DNA of 26,515 bases from a virus. A program made the translations under genes and the position numbers. Positions 12,411 to 19,626 of the stretch are shown in pieces. The first letter of the stretch is position 1. The number at the start of each line of letters is the position of its first letter. Below the pieces are notes generated by a model. It saw nothing but the letters and a program-made list of their open reading frames with translations. It searched no databases and had not been told where the DNA came from. The stretch lies in IMG/VR virus record IMGVR_UViG_3300037882_000377, positions 1-26,515 of that record. The stretch is one strand, 5' to 3'.

Positions 12411-13115
12411 TTACACCGTGATGGCCGACCACGTGTTAGCGGCCGAATCGATGCAAGTGATCAGCGCACCACCGCCAGACGCGGTGGAAAACGCCGCGTT
12501 AACCGAGCCGTTGTTGATCGCGCCACCAGTGGGCGGGTAAATCTTCACCACGGCGGCCGCGCCATTGGTCACGAGGAAAGTGCGCCCCGTCACCTTGTCC
12601 GTCGCGCTGATGATTACGCCCTTAATGCCATCGCCTGCGCTCGTCGGATAGATCGACGCAGTGCCCGATGGAAGGGCCGCCGCATCGCCCACGGCCGAGC
12701 CAGCCGCAGCGGTGGATGCGCCGACAGAGAGCGTCAGCAGGCCGGGGATGCGATCGGGAATCGCGGGGTGAAGACGCACGCGCACCGTAGCGCCACCGCT
12801 GACGGCAGCATCCGTCGCGACGCCCAAGAAGTAGTTGCCAGCAGCGGTCGATGTCGCCGCACCGGTGCCAGCCGTTCCGCCGACAGGGTCACCATCGGTG
12901 TCCCAATACACATCGTCGTCGGCGGAGAAAGCCCCGGTGGCCTTGACGAAATCGAAGTCGCCATCCTTGTGCAGCGTGCCAAGAGCACTGGCCGCAATGT
13001 CGAGCTTGGCGACGTAAGCGTTGTTGCCAACAATCTCCACGTCGCCCGCCGTTACCGCTGACCCGGGGGTATACGGGATCGTCCCCGAGTCACGAACAAA
13101 GGTTGCCTGAGCCAT
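12411..13115 (-). CDS. DUF2190-type capsid decoration protein with extra C-terminal beta domain
   Basis: 234 aa. Residues 1-115 match the pattern of DUF2190 capsid decoration proteins: TIPYTPGSAVTAGDVEIVGN, then DFDFVKATGAFSADDDVYWD, a Gly/Thr loop and YFLGVATDAAVSGGATVRVR. The C-terminal part (about 150-234) is a second beta domain with DGIKGVIISATDKVTGRTFL, VVKIYPPTGGAINNGSVNAA and a final ALITCIDSAANTWSAITV, of a kind found alone or fused on other phage structural proteins. Decoration proteins bind the expanded shell and stabilise it. AAAGGA lies 7 nt before the ATG. It follows the capsid gene after a 66-nt gap containing a GC-rich hairpin, so its level may be set partly by that structure. 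The two-domain architecture is the main unusual point. Confidence 0.82.
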   Translation of the reverse strand: MAQATFVRDSGTIPYTPGSAVTAGDVEIVGNNAYVAKLDIAASALGTLHKDGDFDFVKATGAFSADDDVYWDTDGDPVGGTAGTGAATSTAAGNYFLGVATDAAVSGGATVRVRLHPAIPDRIPGLLTLSVGASTAAAGSAVGDAAALPSGTASIYPTSAGDGIKGVIISATDKVTGRTFLVTNGAAAVVKIYPPTGGAINNGSVNAAFSTASGGGALITCIDSAANTWSAITV

Positions 13116-13170: not shown

Positions 13171-13191
13171 CGCGGCGCTGGTTACGCCGCG
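13171..13191 (-). other. GC-rich hairpin spanning the capsid stop codon
   Basis: A perfect 7-bp stem CGCGGCG/CGCCGCG with a 7-nt loop that contains the TAA stop. No T-rich tract follows on the minus strand, so it is not a classical intrinsic terminator. It could protect the capsid mRNA or lower read-through into the decoration gene. Confidence 0.45.
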
Positions 13192-14594
13192 CCCTTGGAG
13201 AACGCACCACCGCGATAGTCAGACTGCGCGAAATCGAAGTCGAAGTATCCGCGCATCTGGATGCCTAGCTGATCAAAATCAGCGTCGGCGGATTCGACCG
13301 TCGGAGTGTCCACGCCGTTCAAGAACGCGGCCTCGAAGGCATGCAACTTCGACGGATCGAAGAACAGATACCACCCCGTAGTCGAATAACCGGTGTAGCT
13401 CGAATTACTCAAGTACGGGGTGCTGACTACGCCGCCCGGCAAAGAATTAACGTGCGGGTTGTTCGCGGGCTTCGGCGAGCCAGCGGTTGCGGCCTCAAGC
13501 AGCAACTGGCTGTTGAGCAGCGTCCGAGCCGTCACGTCGAGCTCCGATGGCACGAGGATCAAATGCGGCGTGTAGCCGATCGGAGTGCCGTTGGGCTTGG
13601 TCTGCTTCATCAGGGTCGTCTTCAGCGACGTCAGCGACGTCACCTGCAGATTCGTTGCCGCGCCTTCGATGTAGTTTGCATTCCCGGTCGCGAAGAAGCT
13701 CCCGGTGTTGGCGAGAAGCAGCGTGTAGGCAGCGTCGGCCACCGATTCGCCAGCGCCCATGCCAATCTCGCGGGCAATATTGCCGAACGCGCCAAGGTCA
13801 TCGTTGACGATGTCCTGCCGCGTGATCGAGAACATTCGCCCGTAGGTGTCTGCCTGCACGGTAAACGTCTGTTCGCTGACGGTGCCATGTTGGATGTGGC
13901 CATCAGCGGCGACGGGCAGGAACTTGAACGACCCGCTCATCCGATGCCGAGTGTGTGCCTTGAAATCGTTGACTTGCGTTACACGCGCCCACGATCGCCA
14001 CGTCTGATCCATGCCCTCGTAGGCATCGAGCAGCGTCTTATTCGCGGTTGCGCCGAGCAAGCTCGGCAGGCTCATGGTCGAGAATGCGGCCCGGATGAAT
14101 CCCTTCGTGTCCTGTCGCGGATTCGGCAGCGACTGGCCGCACGCAGCCTCGAATAGCCCACGCAGTCCGACGCGATTGAGCTTCGCGAGCTCCATCGCAT
14201 TCGCCGCATCGGCTCCGTAGTGTGCGACGATTCGCTTGCCATCCATGCCCATCGCTCGGCACAACGCAGCGGACACGACCGAGCCGGTGGGCTGATCGAG
14301 CGTCATGCTGGCATTGATGTTCTTCGTCGGCGCGCGGGATGCCCGCAGCGCGTGGAGTTCAGCGCGATCCGCGTCCCACCCCTTTTCGATCGCCTCGGAG
14401 ATGATGTCGTCACGCTGCGACGCCTCGATGTCAGTGGAACCTACACGCTTGCGGATGTCCGCGATTCGCTTGTGTTCCGCCAACGACTCGGCGCGAATCT
14501 GATCGCGCATGGATGACGTGTCAGACGGCTTGGCCGCTTCGATGATCGGCGCAGGCGCCGGGAGCGTCACAGTAGTTGCACCTTCGCTTGACAT
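13182..14594 (-). CDS. Nested capsid protein from an internal start (470 aa)
   Basis: Within the fusion frame, codon 188 is an ATG preceded by AAAGGAGG at 14602-14609, 7 nt upstream. This is one of the best ribosome binding sites in the window and would be hard to explain by chance in the middle of a gene. The product begins MSSEGATTVTLPAPAP and contains the helical delta-like section and the whole capsid domain without the protease. Its existence would give many capsid subunits per protease copy, as the lambda C/Nu3 nested genes do for scaffold. It remains a prediction: N-terminal sequencing of the virion or prohead would show which starts are used. Confidence 0.72.
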   Translation of the reverse strand: MSSEGATTVTLPAPAPIIEAAKPSDTSSMRDQIRAESLAEHKRIADIRKRVGSTDIEASQRDDIISEAIEKGWDADRAELHALRASRAPTKNINASMTLDQPTGSVVSAALCRAMGMDGKRIVAHYGADAANAMELAKLNRVGLRGLFEAACGQSLPNPRQDTKGFIRAAFSTMSLPSLLGATANKTLLDAYEGMDQTWRSWARVTQVNDFKAHTRHRMSGSFKFLPVAADGHIQHGTVSEQTFTVQADTYGRMFSITRQDIVNDDLGAFGNIAREIGMGAGESVADAAYTLLLANTGSFFATGNANYIEGAATNLQVTSLTSLKTTLMKQTKPNGTPIGYTPHLILVPSELDVTARTLLNSQLLLEAATAGSPKPANNPHVNSLPGGVVSTPYLSNSSYTGYSTTGWYLFFDPSKLHAFEAAFLNGVDTPTVESADADFDQLGIQMRGYFDFDFAQSDYRGGAFSKGAA

Positions 14595-15155
14595 GGTCTG
14601 GCCTCCTTTGTCGTGTGATGCCGCGATCTTCGCGGTCGTGGTGTTGTCTGCCCCGATGTCGACAAACGATGTCTCAACGAGCGTCGTTTTCGTCGCGTGA
14701 ATAAGCGGGCCGTTGTGCGTCTTGCCGTTCGCCTCGACGGTCTTGCCCTCTTCGATGAACTTCCATCGCTGAATCGATGCGCCGATGCTCGCCTGCCACG
14801 GGAATCCGTTGTTTCCACTCGCGACGACCTCCATGGCCGCCGGTGTCGCTCGCGAAATCACGCCGGATACGTAGAGCTTGTCCGCTCGCACCTCGATCGC
14901 GACCGCGTGGCCCACGCCGTGGTCACGCGAATGATTGAGCCTGATCGGGACCTTTGCCGCCCATTTCATTCCGGCCAGGTCAACGAGAACCGGGAACTCG
15001 AATCCCACGTCGATCGGGCCACCGCTGTAGGCGGTCATCGAAAACGTAGGCAGCTTCGCGCCACCTTCGGCCTCCGACTGGGCGAACTGAATGCAGTCGC
15101 CGGGAATGGCCATTTCGATCCGCTTTGGAATGTCACTCGGCGTCTTCGTATTCAT
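13182..15155 (-). CDS. Prohead protease / major capsid protein fusion
   Basis: 657 aa. Residues ~35-180 resemble a prohead protease: RLNHSRDHGVGHAVAI (His75), a central strand KLYVSGVIS, WQASIGAS (Ser123) and LVETSFVDIGADN, the order of His and Ser elements in U35/S78-type proteases. Residues ~215-275 are a charged helical segment (RAESLAEHKRIADIRKRV) that may act as a scaffold-like delta domain. From ~280 onward lies the capsid part, with RMSGSFKFLPVAADG and FSITRQDIVNDDLGAFGNI, a type known from protease-capsid fusions. The ATG overlaps the portal stop (ATGA), with no strong Shine-Dalgarno, so full-length fusion is probably made in modest amounts by coupling. A strong internal start at 14594 would yield the capsid alone. 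Cleavage would release the mature shell protein; the site is not determined. Confidence 0.9.
   Translation of the reverse strand: MNTKTPSDIPKRIEMAIPGDCIQFAQSEAEGGAKLPTFSMTAYSGGPIDVGFEFPVLVDLAGMKWAAKVPIRLNHSRDHGVGHAVAIEVRADKLYVSGVISRATPAAMEVVASGNNGFPWQASIGASIQRWKFIEEGKTVEANGKTHNGPLIHATKTTLVETSFVDIGADNTTTAKIAASHDKGGQTMSSEGATTVTLPAPAPIIEAAKPSDTSSMRDQIRAESLAEHKRIADIRKRVGSTDIEASQRDDIISEAIEKGWDADRAELHALRASRAPTKNINASMTLDQPTGSVVSAALCRAMGMDGKRIVAHYGADAANAMELAKLNRVGLRGLFEAACGQSLPNPRQDTKGFIRAAFSTMSLPSLLGATANKTLLDAYEGMDQTWRSWARVTQVNDFKAHTRHRMSGSFKFLPVAADGHIQHGTVSEQTFTVQADTYGRMFSITRQDIVNDDLGAFGNIAREIGMGAGESVADAAYTLLLANTGSFFATGNANYIEGAATNLQVTSLTSLKTTLMKQTKPNGTPIGYTPHLILVPSELDVTARTLLNSQLLLEAATAGSPKPANNPHVNSLPGGVVSTPYLSNSSYTGYSTTGWYLFFDPSKLHAFEAAFLNGVDTPTVESADADFDQLGIQMRGYFDFDFAQSDYRGGAFSKGAA
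14602..14609 (-). promoter_or_regulatory. Internal Shine-Dalgarno for the nested capsid start
   Basis: AAAGGAGG on the minus strand, 7 nt upstream of an in-frame ATG (14592-14594) inside the protease-capsid fusion. It closely matches the 16S rRNA anti-SD and has ideal spacing, whereas the fusion's own start has only a weak GCGAG. Confidence 0.8.
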
Positions 15156-16651
15156 CGTTTGACTCGCTTGGTTACATCGTCTACCGGCAGGCCCAACTTC
15201 TGTTTCAGCTCTCGCTCCCTCGCCCGCTGTTTAAGGAGCGTGCGCCACGACATTTGCTGCTTCGCCGCCTCCACCGCCAACGTTGTAACGCCACTCGCCA
15301 ATCGGATCGCTTGAGCGTCCGCCTCTTTTTTCGGATCGACGTGCTCGAACGGCGGCCACACCCACTCGTAGTCAGGCCGCACGTCGCCAAACTCATCGGT
15401 CAGTTGGCCAATCGCGCCGGGGCCGTTCGCTAATTCGTACTCGCGAGCCCACATCCGAAACAGCGGATCAAGAATCGTGCGTGCATACGTGTCCCGATCA
15501 ATCTCGATCGCCCGATGAAACGCCTGCCAATCGAGCCTCCCCGATGCGTAGTTGTGCTGGCTCGAATCGCCGGACGCCACACTCACGGGCATTCCGATCG
15601 GCCTCGATGACTCGCCAAGCATCGACCGCAGGAACGACTCGTGCGCATCGGTAGGCTGCTCGGCCCTCACTTGGTTGATGTTCGAGCCGCTGGGCATTTG
15701 CATCCACATGCCGCGCTCAAACTCAACACCCTCGTAGGGCATCACGCCTGTCGTTTCGTTCGTGTCGTTGCCCGTGTCTGCGCCTGCGCCGGTCGTGATG
15801 ACGCCGCCGATCATCGCTGCGTTTTCTGCCGCATTGACGACGGCCAAGGAGTAGCGCCGCATCATTCCGAAAAGCCCGATCGTGGCGGCAAGCTCAGGCA
15901 CGCCTCGCACTTGCCCCGGTCGCTTTCGCGCGACCAAGTGAAACACTCGCGACGCTGAAAGCACGTCATACTCTGTCCCCGACGCACCCCACCATGCGTT
16001 GTCGCCCGGATGCTTCCGCAGAACCACATAGGCGATCGCGTTTCCGGTCGCGTCGAGAATCACACCGTCGATCGACGCCGCAGCGTCAGGCGGCAATCCC
16101 TTGATTCCGCCGAGGCTTGCAGCGCTCGTGACATCCGATGCCGCGAAAATCGAGGGGTTCGCCACACGATCCGCCTCGACCGCCGCGATGTCCAGCCGCG
16201 TCCATCCCGTCATCCGTGGATTGTCGATCGCCACCGCGAAACACTCGCCAGACTCCGCCTGCGATCGACGCATCAATCGCAGCTTCTCGGCCAGGTCGAT
16301 CTTCCTCGCCCATCGCAACCAGTCCCGCTCGATCGCCTCATCCTTCGCATCGTCGCCTGTGTCGATGACCAGCTTCGGGCCGTTGCCGATCACATAGTTC
16401 GCGACTGTCGCGACGATGCCATCGAGGTAGCCGTTGTTCGCCGTCTCGTGACGGCTTCGGATTCGCATCGTCCGCCGATGGTCCGCCATCGTCGCGGTCA
16501 ATGCCGAGTCCATCCTCGCGTCGGCCCAGTGCCGCTGATTCTCACGCACCGTGCGAGTCAGGTCATAGGCGGCACGTACGGCCCGCCTGGGCTTCCCGGG
16601 TGGCGGGGGCTGGGACACTGCGCTCGTGAGTGATCGCAACCATCCGAACAC
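15152..16651 (-). CDS. Lambda-type portal protein
   Basis: 499 aa, close to the size of lambda gpB. The N-terminal RTVRENQRHWADARMDSALT and TMRIRSRHETANNGYLDGIV, followed by YVIGNGPKL, are hallmarks of lambda-family portals (phage_portal_2). Further marks are QAESGECFAVAIDNPRMTGW, VFHLVARKRPGQVRGVPELA, a mid-sequence PYEGVEFERGMWMQMPSGSN and GDSSQHNYASGRLDWQAFHR near the end. The portal is the twelve-subunit ring through which DNA is packaged and the tail attaches. It starts with GTG at 16649-16651, with GGGAGC about 10 nt upstream, and its TGA overlaps the ATG of the protease-capsid gene. The order terminase, small gene, portal, protease-capsid is that of lambda. Confidence 0.95.
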   Translation of the reverse strand: MFGWLRSLTSAVSQPPPPGKPRRAVRAAYDLTRTVRENQRHWADARMDSALTATMADHRRTMRIRSRHETANNGYLDGIVATVANYVIGNGPKLVIDTGDDAKDEAIERDWLRWARKIDLAEKLRLMRRSQAESGECFAVAIDNPRMTGWTRLDIAAVEADRVANPSIFAASDVTSAASLGGIKGLPPDAAASIDGVILDATGNAIAYVVLRKHPGDNAWWGASGTEYDVLSASRVFHLVARKRPGQVRGVPELAATIGLFGMMRRYSLAVVNAAENAAMIGGVITTGAGADTGNDTNETTGVMPYEGVEFERGMWMQMPSGSNINQVRAEQPTDAHESFLRSMLGESSRPIGMPVSVASGDSSQHNYASGRLDWQAFHRAIEIDRDTYARTILDPLFRMWAREYELANGPGAIGQLTDEFGDVRPDYEWVWPPFEHVDPKKEADAQAIRLASGVTTLAVEAAKQQMSWRTLLKQRARERELKQKLGLPVDDVTKRVKR

Positions 16652-17115: not shown

Positions 17116-19379
17116 CGGCCTAGCACCTCACGTTTGTATGCTTCCCACGTCAGCATCCGCTTCTTCTTCTCGCTACCTGGAATCTCCGTCGTGGCAAGAC
17201 TTACACCGCACATCGACGCCGCTACCGCGCAGCCGACGAGGCAGTCGAGCCAGTGGTTGTCGGGGCGCGAGGGGCGAACGGACCATTCCTGCACCACGCG
17301 GCCGTTGCCCTCGGTGCGGGTCCACGTTTCGCTGGCCGCGATGTGGTCAGCGAACAGGCGATGCTCGGACTCGGACTTGCCGTAGAGCGTCAGCGCGCCG
17401 CGGTCACCAGGGGCGACCGACAGGCGGGCGTGGATGAAGGTCTTCCAGTAGTTCGTGTCGTACTGCACGTGGCGCAGCTCGCGTGTTCGGCTGACGTTGG
17501 GGACGTACCAGTTGTGGCCGTGCTTCTCGCCGGGCTTGCGTTGGTAGGCGGACATGGGCTTCTTGCCAGCTGTGATGCCCACGCCTTTGGAGGGCATGAC
17601 CGTCGCGGGAAGCTTGTGGCATACGTTGCCGATGACGCCGGTCATGTAGCCCGCGTCGATCAGGCACTTCTCGATGCGCATCGCGCCGGTGCCCGCCATC
17701 TGCCACGAGCGCGACAGATAGTCCGTGGCCAGAGCTTCGATGCCCGCGTGGATCGCGCCTTCGATGCCGTCCTGCGGCCCGCCCAGCGTTTTCGTGGCGT
17801 CGCGAAGCGTGAACAGCCTCCGCTTCTGGTCCGGGTAGGTGCCGTAGTCGATGACGTAGCCCGTGAAGTCCGGCTCCCATGCGCAGACCGCGTAGAACAG
17901 CAGCTTGTCATGCACGTCGATGAACATGGTCAGGTTGGTCGCGGCCTGGGGCACCTCGAAGCGCGGGCGACCGTTGACCCGCTGGGCCACCTGGTCCGGC
18001 GTGAGCAAACCCTCGTCGGCCTGGTCCGCGATGGGCTCGTTCTGGTACTCGGCGAAGAAAGCCGCCTCGTCGCGCAGCCGAAGGTTCATCGCGTGCTGGA
18101 TGGCTGAGAGCTCATCAATGTTGTACCGTTGCGGCCATGCGACCAGGCTACCGGCATCCATCGCCTCGCGGTTCTCCGCGTAGAACTCGGTCGCGCGCTT
18201 GCCGCCATCGCCCTCACGGAGCCCCTGGGCGCGAAGCTCAGCGTACTGATCCCATCGCGTCTCATCAGCGGGGAACGCGTAGACCATCTTGGTGCACTCG
18301 CCCTGCCACTCGGGGTTCTTCTCGCGGCTGAGGATCTGGTCGGCCAGGTCATCGTGGTAGATCTTGGTGCACGGCATGAAGCCGGCGATCTTCACATCCG
18401 GGCCCGCCATGCCCAGCACATCGCCGTTGAGGATGGCCAGGCGATGTTTCGTCTGCGATCGCGACGCGGCGGACTGGCGCGTCTGCGGGTCATCGAGGAT
18501 CACCAGCGATGGGCGGATGATCGTGCCGTCCATCTTCGTGTGCTGCTGCCCGCGGATGTTGGAGTCGAGGCCAGCTACGGTGATGATCGCACCCGAGGAC
18601 GGCGAGTTCCGGGGTCCGGGGATCGTGGGCATCACGAGCTTGTCCGCCGCCCAGATGATGTTCGTCGGCTCGCCATCGCAAAGCTGGCCGATCTGCTTGC
18701 GGGCGTTGTTCTCCAGCTTGCGGAGGGGGTAGATCGCCTCGGGGAAGTCTTCGAGGAGCAGGTCATTGCTCGCCATGTCGCGCCGGATCGCGCCCAGGAC
18801 CATCTTGGCCATGTCCTCGGCGCTGCCGATGATGCACACGTAATCGCGGAATCCGTAGAGCACTGCCCACATCGCCGCCACGCGAGCGAGTGAGGTCTTC
18901 CCACTGCCGCGAGGCATGGCGAACGCGAACAGCCCGCCTTCGAGCACGGCACGCTCGATCTTGTCGATCACCCGCAGGTGGTCATCGGACCATTTCAGGC
19001 GGAAGGCCTGGGGGAAGTACGTCTCGCAGAACGCGCGGAACGATCCTTCGCATCGCGCCCGGCGATCGGGGCTGACGACCTGCGGGATCGATCCGATGTC
19101 GCGTCCCTGTCGCGATTTCGTCAGCTGGCGCTCCAGGTCGCGGCGCAGCTTCTCCTCGTAGCCCACCGTCTGCGGCCTAGGCTCGTCGCGCTTGCGCGCC
19201 AGCCACGCCACGTACTTGACGAGGTCCACCCGCCGCGAGTCGCCGGGGGCGGTGATGCGCAGGCCCGCCTCGTTCATCTGGCGGTTGACCTTGCTCGCGT
19301 TGACGACCGCCCCCATCGGCGTGGAGTTGATCAGTCGCACAAGCTGCGTCGGCGTCAGGCTGCGGATGTCAATCTCCAC
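17112..19379 (-). CDS. Terminase large subunit (GpA type) with N-terminal DNA-binding domain
   Basis: 755 aa from the GTG at 19377-19379, preceded by AAGGAGG; a GTG two codons earlier lies inside that ribosome site and is unlikely (residue numbers here count from it, adding 2). Residues ~1-65 form a helix-turn-helix-like domain (TPTQLVRLINSTPMGAVVNA, then RRVDLVKYVAWLARKR) not normally present in lambda gpA. The ATPase follows, with Walker A MPRGSGKT (157-164) and Walker B LVILDD (294-299). The nuclease half shows FIDVHD (Asp490), IDAGY (Asp577) and DNHWLDC (Asp714) as candidate metal-binding acids. It translocates and cuts concatemeric DNA at the portal. It overlaps the small subunit by 11 nt and the zinc-ribbon gene by 3 nt. 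Confidence 0.95.
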   Translation of the reverse strand: MEIDIRSLTPTQLVRLINSTPMGAVVNASKVNRQMNEAGLRITAPGDSRRVDLVKYVAWLARKRDEPRPQTVGYEEKLRRDLERQLTKSRQGRDIGSIPQVVSPDRRARCEGSFRAFCETYFPQAFRLKWSDDHLRVIDKIERAVLEGGLFAFAMPRGSGKTSLARVAAMWAVLYGFRDYVCIIGSAEDMAKMVLGAIRRDMASNDLLLEDFPEAIYPLRKLENNARKQIGQLCDGEPTNIIWAADKLVMPTIPGPRNSPSSGAIITVAGLDSNIRGQQHTKMDGTIIRPSLVILDDPQTRQSAASRSQTKHRLAILNGDVLGMAGPDVKIAGFMPCTKIYHDDLADQILSREKNPEWQGECTKMVYAFPADETRWDQYAELRAQGLREGDGGKRATEFYAENREAMDAGSLVAWPQRYNIDELSAIQHAMNLRLRDEAAFFAEYQNEPIADQADEGLLTPDQVAQRVNGRPRFEVPQAATNLTMFIDVHDKLLFYAVCAWEPDFTGYVIDYGTYPDQKRRLFTLRDATKTLGGPQDGIEGAIHAGIEALATDYLSRSWQMAGTGAMRIEKCLIDAGYMTGVIGNVCHKLPATVMPSKGVGITAGKKPMSAYQRKPGEKHGHNWYVPNVSRTRELRHVQYDTNYWKTFIHARLSVAPGDRGALTLYGKSESEHRLFADHIAASETWTRTEGNGRVVQEWSVRPSRPDNHWLDCLVGCAVAASMCGVSLATTEIPGSEKKKRMLTWEAYKREVLGR

Positions 19380-19626
19380 TGGCACCTCCTTCCTGGCCGC
19401 CAGCGTTGAGCCAGGCGGCGTAGTGGATCAGGTTGATCGTTCCATCCCGGTTGACCGGCGCGCCATGGTCGACGTGGCGCCGCACCGTTCCGGACGCCAG
19501 GCCGAGCATCCGCGCGAGCGCGTCGGGGTCGATAGACGACGGGTCGAGCGGGTCTTTGGCATCGGGGCCGGAGGCATGGATTTCGGCATTGGCGTTTGTC
19601 ATGTCAGCAATCCGACCAAAGTCCAT
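19369..19626 (-). CDS. Terminase small subunit-like winged-helix protein
   Basis: 85 aa. After an acidic Asp/Pro-rich N-terminus, residues ~34-75 read DALARMLGLASGTVRRHVDH and then GAPVNRDGTINLIHYAAWL, the pattern of a Nu1-type winged helix (helix, turn, recognition helix, wing, final helix ending AAWL). It lies immediately upstream of the large terminase and overlaps it, the usual place of the small subunit, and would recognise the packaging site. It is short compared with lambda Nu1 (181 aa) and lacks the coiled assembly domain. The ATG at 19626 has only a weak ribosome site (GAGAT), and an internal ATG at residue 9 is possible. The final helix motif also occurs in the N-terminal domain of the large subunit. 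Confidence 0.8.
   Translation of the reverse strand: MDFGRIADMTNANAEIHASGPDAKDPLDPSSIDPDALARMLGLASGTVRRHVDHGAPVNRDGTINLIHYAAWLNAGGQEGGASGD

Follow-up and report, generated by a model that had tools for sequence, protein, structure and literature searches.

The question and the gene

When protease, scaffold and capsid are encoded in a single gene, as in Gifsy-2 and MD8, every capsid subunit would carry a protease, which raises the question of how the shell holds the protease and sets its dose. The window analysed here, i.e., the whole 26,515-nucleotide stretch of viral DNA (IMG/VR record IMGVR_UViG_3300037882_000377), encodes such a gene, and its first-pass annotation proposed that one frame yields two products. 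The genes around it are arranged as follows:

12411..13115, minus strand: decoration/cement protein, downstream of the fusion gene (Pfam Phage_cement_2, E 3.5e-15)
13182..15155, minus strand: protease-scaffold-capsid fusion gene, 657 aa (PHROG 4523, 'major head and protease protein', E 2.9e-73)
15152..15155, minus strand: overlap between portal stop and fusion start (ATGA)
15152..16651, minus strand: portal protein (Pfam Phage_portal_2, E 1.2e-55)

Having a protease and an HK97-fold capsid in one frame, the gene belongs to the protease-major-head fusion family (PHROG 4523/133), and the flanking portal and decoration genes are in the order of this family. The match to PHROG 4523 spans residues 76-653. 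That the fusion family was already known, as the first-pass annotation stated, is borne out by the literature (PMC8508860; PMC6536676). Where a host is named for a capsid relative, it belongs in the overwhelming majority of cases to Planctomycetota, Phycisphaerae above all, so the host of the phage is probably of this phylum.

Two neighbouring genes deserve a remark. The decoration protein has 234 aa, and its Pfam domain covers only residues 10-115. At the terminase (window positions 19375-19395, minus strand), AAGGAGGTG stands upstream of a GTG two codons inside the listed open reading frame (pairing -16.0), which is probably the true start.

Protease and capsid parts of the fusion

Three regions can be delimited in the fusion protein:

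14595..15155, minus strand: predicted S78/herpes-assemblin-fold protease region, residues 1-187 (AF2, Foldseek, Pfam in relatives)
14337..14516, minus strand: putative scaffold (delta-domain-like) helical region, residues 27-86 of the nested product (AF2 helices)
13206..14087, minus strand: HK97-fold major capsid domain (Pfam Phage_capsid_4, E 6.5e-42), residues 357-650 of the fusion protein

Residues 1-187 are predicted to be a prohead protease of the S78/herpes-assemblin type, given an assemblin fold and conserved catalytic His and Ser. The AF2 model of this region, built from 51 sequences, has a pLDDT of 88, and all 50 of the 50 Foldseek matches listed against the PDB are herpesvirus assemblin proteases (best E 4.5e-4). 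His75 (14933-14931) and Ser123 (14789-14787) are invariant columns of the alignment. Pfam Peptidase_S78 was detected in 24 of the 51 relatives. The window's own protease sequence did not reach this family in the Pfam search, which matched the capsid part only, and a PDB sequence search with the protease profile returned nothing useful, whereas the fold search did match. The model of residues 188-657 (pLDDT 85) consists of N-terminal helices followed by an HK97 fold, with structure matches that include 1ohg and 8fqk, both of HK97 fold. In these models, M188 separates the assemblin-fold domain from the scaffold-capsid part.

A second start at the seam

The seam between the two parts reads GACAAAGGAGGCCAGACCATG and has the elements of a translation start:

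14602..14609, minus strand: internal Shine-Dalgarno (SD) sequence AAAGGAGG, a motif kept at the seam of relatives
14592..14594, minus strand: nested start codon ATG (M188 of 657), in frame
13182..14594, minus strand: nested open reading frame, predicted 470-aa scaffold+capsid product (AF2 pLDDT 85, HK97-fold matches)

The first-pass annotation had pointed to a near-perfect ribosome site 7 nt before the in-frame ATG at 14594, and to a fusion start that overlaps the portal stop with no strong site. Both descriptions are accurate. AAAGGAGG occurs only once in the window, counting both strands, is separated from the ATG by a 7-nt spacer (CCAGACC) and has a predicted pairing with the 16S tail (anti-SD) of -11.8 kcal/mol. 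The fusion ATG (15155-15153) shares ATGA with the portal TGA and has only ...CCAAGCGAGTCAAACG upstream, with a predicted pairing of -4.0 kcal/mol. Opening the mRNA is predicted to cost slightly more at the nested start than at the fusion start (8.0 and 6.0 kcal/mol, respectively). The annotation also expected free capsid from the nested start: the product does include the capsid, but it would not be bare, as scaffold-like helices precede it in the model. Its layout is that of HK97 gp5, a capsid with an N-terminal delta domain.

Judged from the window alone, the nested start is suggestive. The site of M188 ranks third among the 176 in-frame internal ATGs of the window genes; the two that score stronger, both in one doubtful open reading frame, are what would favour a chance SD-like string. 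Yet seam occupancy in relatives is about 80-100%, against 2.5-4.5% elsewhere, and we give chance practically no weight. It is because the nested start is conserved in relatives that it can be regarded as more than chance.

Conservation of the seam start

We aligned the window gene with its Planctomycetota-type relatives, 166 genes in all, 164 of which cover the seam. An ATG lies within -12..+15 residues of the seam in 144 of the 164, and an SD motif was found in 115 of 120 distinct upstream sequences, at 5-9 nt from the ATG in 111 of the 115 that bear it. The median pairing at the junction is -7.95, compared with -3.0 at 1488 other in-frame ATGs. A stricter test counted ATGs with GGAG, GAGG or AAGGA at -15..-5 in a 21-codon window, using windows of the same genes away from the seam as controls. 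Among distinct genes, the motif was present at the seam in 118/148 of the Planctomycetota type (100/3973 elsewhere, 2.5%), 36/46 of the Stenotrophomonas-S1 type (32/1276, 2.5%) and 15/15 of the F10 type (19/425, 4.5%). Clustering at 72% capsid identity left SD and ATG at the seam in 50 of 57 representatives. Among cultured phages, S1, LPPA33, B8b, PBb002, F10, mEp460, mEp043, Fels-1 and Gifsy-2 all have an SD-like motif before the seam Met. The first-pass annotation had named lack of SD conservation in homologous fusions as grounds for abandoning the nested start; the conservation across hundreds of homologues, together with the codon choice described below, instead strongly supports a nested capsid start in the same frame.

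A conserved SD need not initiate translation. Being at a domain boundary, it might slow the ribosome and give the protease time to fold ahead of capsid synthesis. This is very unlikely, since an ATG follows 5-9 nt later in 111/115 distinct motif-bearing sequences and the Met is kept despite variable flanks and replaced in one case by GTG. Alternatively, the site could be a relic that is no longer used, the ribosome site of a capsid gene that stood on its own until the protease stop codon was lost; such fusions presumably formed by the joining of a protease gene and a capsid gene, which are separate in HK97 (PMC8508860). A relic would decay, however. That 50 of 57 representatives retain both SD and ATG, and that codon usage continues to favour the SD, makes this even less probable than a pause.

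The seam start is not universal in the family, because about 20 of the 164 loci have no ATG near the seam. Most of them belong to a Rhodopirellula-type clade whose linker is acidic, being D/E-rich in L034, L042, L059, L114, L151 and others (L numbers designate loci). The clade offers a ready comparison for asking whether a fusion can do without the nested start. One S1-type locus (L210) retains AAGGAG but with GTG.

Several loci are unusual in other respects. L084 has an in-frame stop near capsid residue 446 (query numbering) in an otherwise intact fusion. The capsid-bearing frame of L231 is open for 1227 codons from stop to stop, and is possibly a longer fusion that includes upstream head genes. 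In L163, an in-frame TGA (L163:1558-1560) lies between protease+scaffold and capsid, giving a lambda-like split. We considered this locus as a split-gene ancestor and rejected it: it differs by this single TGA after the scaffold, which could reflect a mutation or an assembly error, or permit readthrough. Within the ClpP domain of F10 (L168, M185) and Gifsy-2 (L331, M186), a second SD-like site precedes the conserved ETWM motif and is probably a consequence of the protein sequence. Finally, the chromosome of Planctomycetes strain syqfu (CP087563.1) carries at least 11 such capsid loci (L093, L094, L096, L101, L104, L106, L108, L140, L141, L147, L152), an unusual load of related prophages.

Codon choice at the seam

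The commonest solution at the seam is K/Q-E (AAG/CAG GAG), which by itself is almost an SD. Conservation in the otherwise highly variable linker is highest for K/Q at -5 and E at -4, and Met is kept while its flanking residues vary. This is what one would expect if only the fusion were made, as a single polyprotein from which the protease releases itself at the linker, and if K/Q-E...M were a cleavage or linker signal that mimics an SD. Because resampling of codons with amino acids fixed yields a similar SD in many genes (median fraction of null <= observed, 0.475), most of the SD signal appears to reside in these residues. We thus discarded synonymous resampling as proof of an excess of SD in single genes, and used tests of wobble positions instead. 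The related MD8 gene, too, has been described in print as a single gene with protease, scaffold and capsid parts and as one product, with no mention of an internal start (PMC8508860).

The wobble positions point the other way. In the Planctomycetota-type set, the seam Glu is GAG in 96 of 107 genes (69.6 expected from gene usage) and the codon before it ends in G in 89 of 101 (75.6 expected). GAG is similarly in excess in the S1 type (32/34, 19.0 expected) and in the F10 type (10/10, 5.6 expected). Homologues share descent, which makes all p-values optimistic; the test to trust takes one representative per 72% capsid cluster, and it gave 37 GAG in 40 (25.4 expected, p 5e-6). Glu codons just after the seam ATG favour GAA (GAG in 20/66, 40.2 expected), a bias typical of codons close to a start. 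Codon choice thus retains the SD beyond what the amino acids dictate. A dip in GC3 surrounds the junction ATG but not control ATGs; the support is weak because the few start-less genes show a similar or partial dip.

Further observations are difficult to reconcile with a protein motif. The residue preceding the seam Glu varies (K, Q, T, G, L, E, P and others), and genes without the Glu build an SD in other frames from different residues: AAA GGA GGC (window), CAA GGA GCG, TTA GGA GCA. L210 keeps its AAGGAG with a GTG. The seam signal is common to S78 and ClpP fusions, although these proteases are unrelated and would not have to obey one set of cleavage rules. We therefore regard the single polyprotein as unlikely, though less so than the other alternatives.

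Exchange of protease modules at the seam

The S1-type capsids are fused to S78 proteases in L203, L210 and L246 (Pfam) and in the near-identical relatives of S1 (HMM typing), and to ClpP proteases in L204, L213, L217, L224, L230 and L248 (Pfam E 7e-25 to 2e-34). Both types are thus found upstream of one S1-type seam. On the capsid tree, the protease type changes at least four times by parsimony, fewer changes being forced by well-supported branches. The strict motif is present at the seam in 27 of 28 ClpP members and 9 of 18 S78 members of the S1 set. The protease module is swapped between S78 and ClpP at this seam, with the start retained, which identifies the seam as the point where unrelated proteases are exchanged onto one kind of capsid.

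Two probable products from one gene

Two shell proteins, one with the protease and one without it, are most likely made from this gene. We consider it very probable that one gene with two starts gives two products that co-assemble, so that the protease is carried into the prohead, where cleavage and maturation follow. A single late mRNA would be translated in one reading frame from two starts. The first (ATG 15155), coupled to termination of the portal gene, would give the protease-scaffold-capsid fusion; the second (ATG 14594), with its own SD, would give scaffold-capsid alone, the equivalent of HK97 gp5. The shared capsid part would let the two co-assemble, and the prohead would receive protease in a dose set by the initiation rates at both starts. 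The protease would then cut away the linker/scaffold region and the head would mature.

Because most fusion starts in the family overlap the portal stop, translation of the fusion start by coupling to the portal gene is likely. The first-pass annotation had expected little fusion and much capsid. For the window this agrees with SD strength (-4.0 at the fusion start, -11.8 at the nested start), whereas the mRNA opening costs point slightly the other way. As a family rule, a weak fusion start had to be rejected: median SD strengths are -7.4 at the fusion start and -7.5 at the junction, the latter being stronger in 53 of 113 genes. Since the two are about equal, the product ratio cannot be read from the sequence.

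More broadly, there is perhaps an even chance that all or most tripartite genes, whatever their protease, make two products, the seam start both setting the protease dose and serving as a recombination joint. A conserved nested start would be a simple answer to the problem of protease dosing, testable in laboratory phages that are in culture, and would correct the annotation of hundreds of tripartite head genes.

Comparison with known systems

Protease-capsid fusions are known, as are the nested protease/scaffold genes of lambda and Mu. We found no report, in the open-access literature, of an internal start in tripartite protease-scaffold-capsid fusions, and in these the nested start appears to be new. 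The 'tripartite' gene of Gifsy-2 and those of Fels-1, mEp460, F10 and MD8 have protease, scaffold and capsid in one gene like the window, but their protease is of the ClpP type and not of the S78/assemblin type. The Gifsy-2 fusion gene is known, and Effantin et al. reportedly carried out structural work on this phage in 2010. Its seam start is M221 (GAGGAG, 9 nt, ATG; pairing -8.9), and that of F10 is M220, of the same kind as M188. The gp8 of Stenotrophomonas phage S1 (PHROG 4523) is closer in its protease, typed as S78 through HMM typing of near-identical relatives. It has AGGAG followed by ATG at M207, a seam as in the window, although its capsid groups in another clade of the tree and it is annotated as a single product.

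In lambda C/Nu3 and Mu I/Z, an in-frame nested start behind the head protease gives a protease-bearing long product and a protease-free short one. The short product is scaffold only, the capsid being a separate gene (E, T). The likeness to lambda drawn by the first-pass annotation therefore stands for the principle: the seam start is a conserved in-frame SD and start inside a protease gene, with 3'-coterminal products. It does not extend to the product, as the short product predicted here is scaffold plus capsid. The gene would work like C/Nu3 and yet is not a member of that kind, because its frame runs through the capsid. Herpesvirus UL26/UL26.5 also combines an assemblin fold with nested 3'-coterminal products, but the UL26.5 product is a scaffold made from its own transcript, with no capsid fusion. 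In HK97, a protease of the same kind (gp4) adjoins a capsid with its own N-terminal scaffold, the delta domain (gp5); what HK97 encodes in two separate genes, the window encodes in one frame with two starts.
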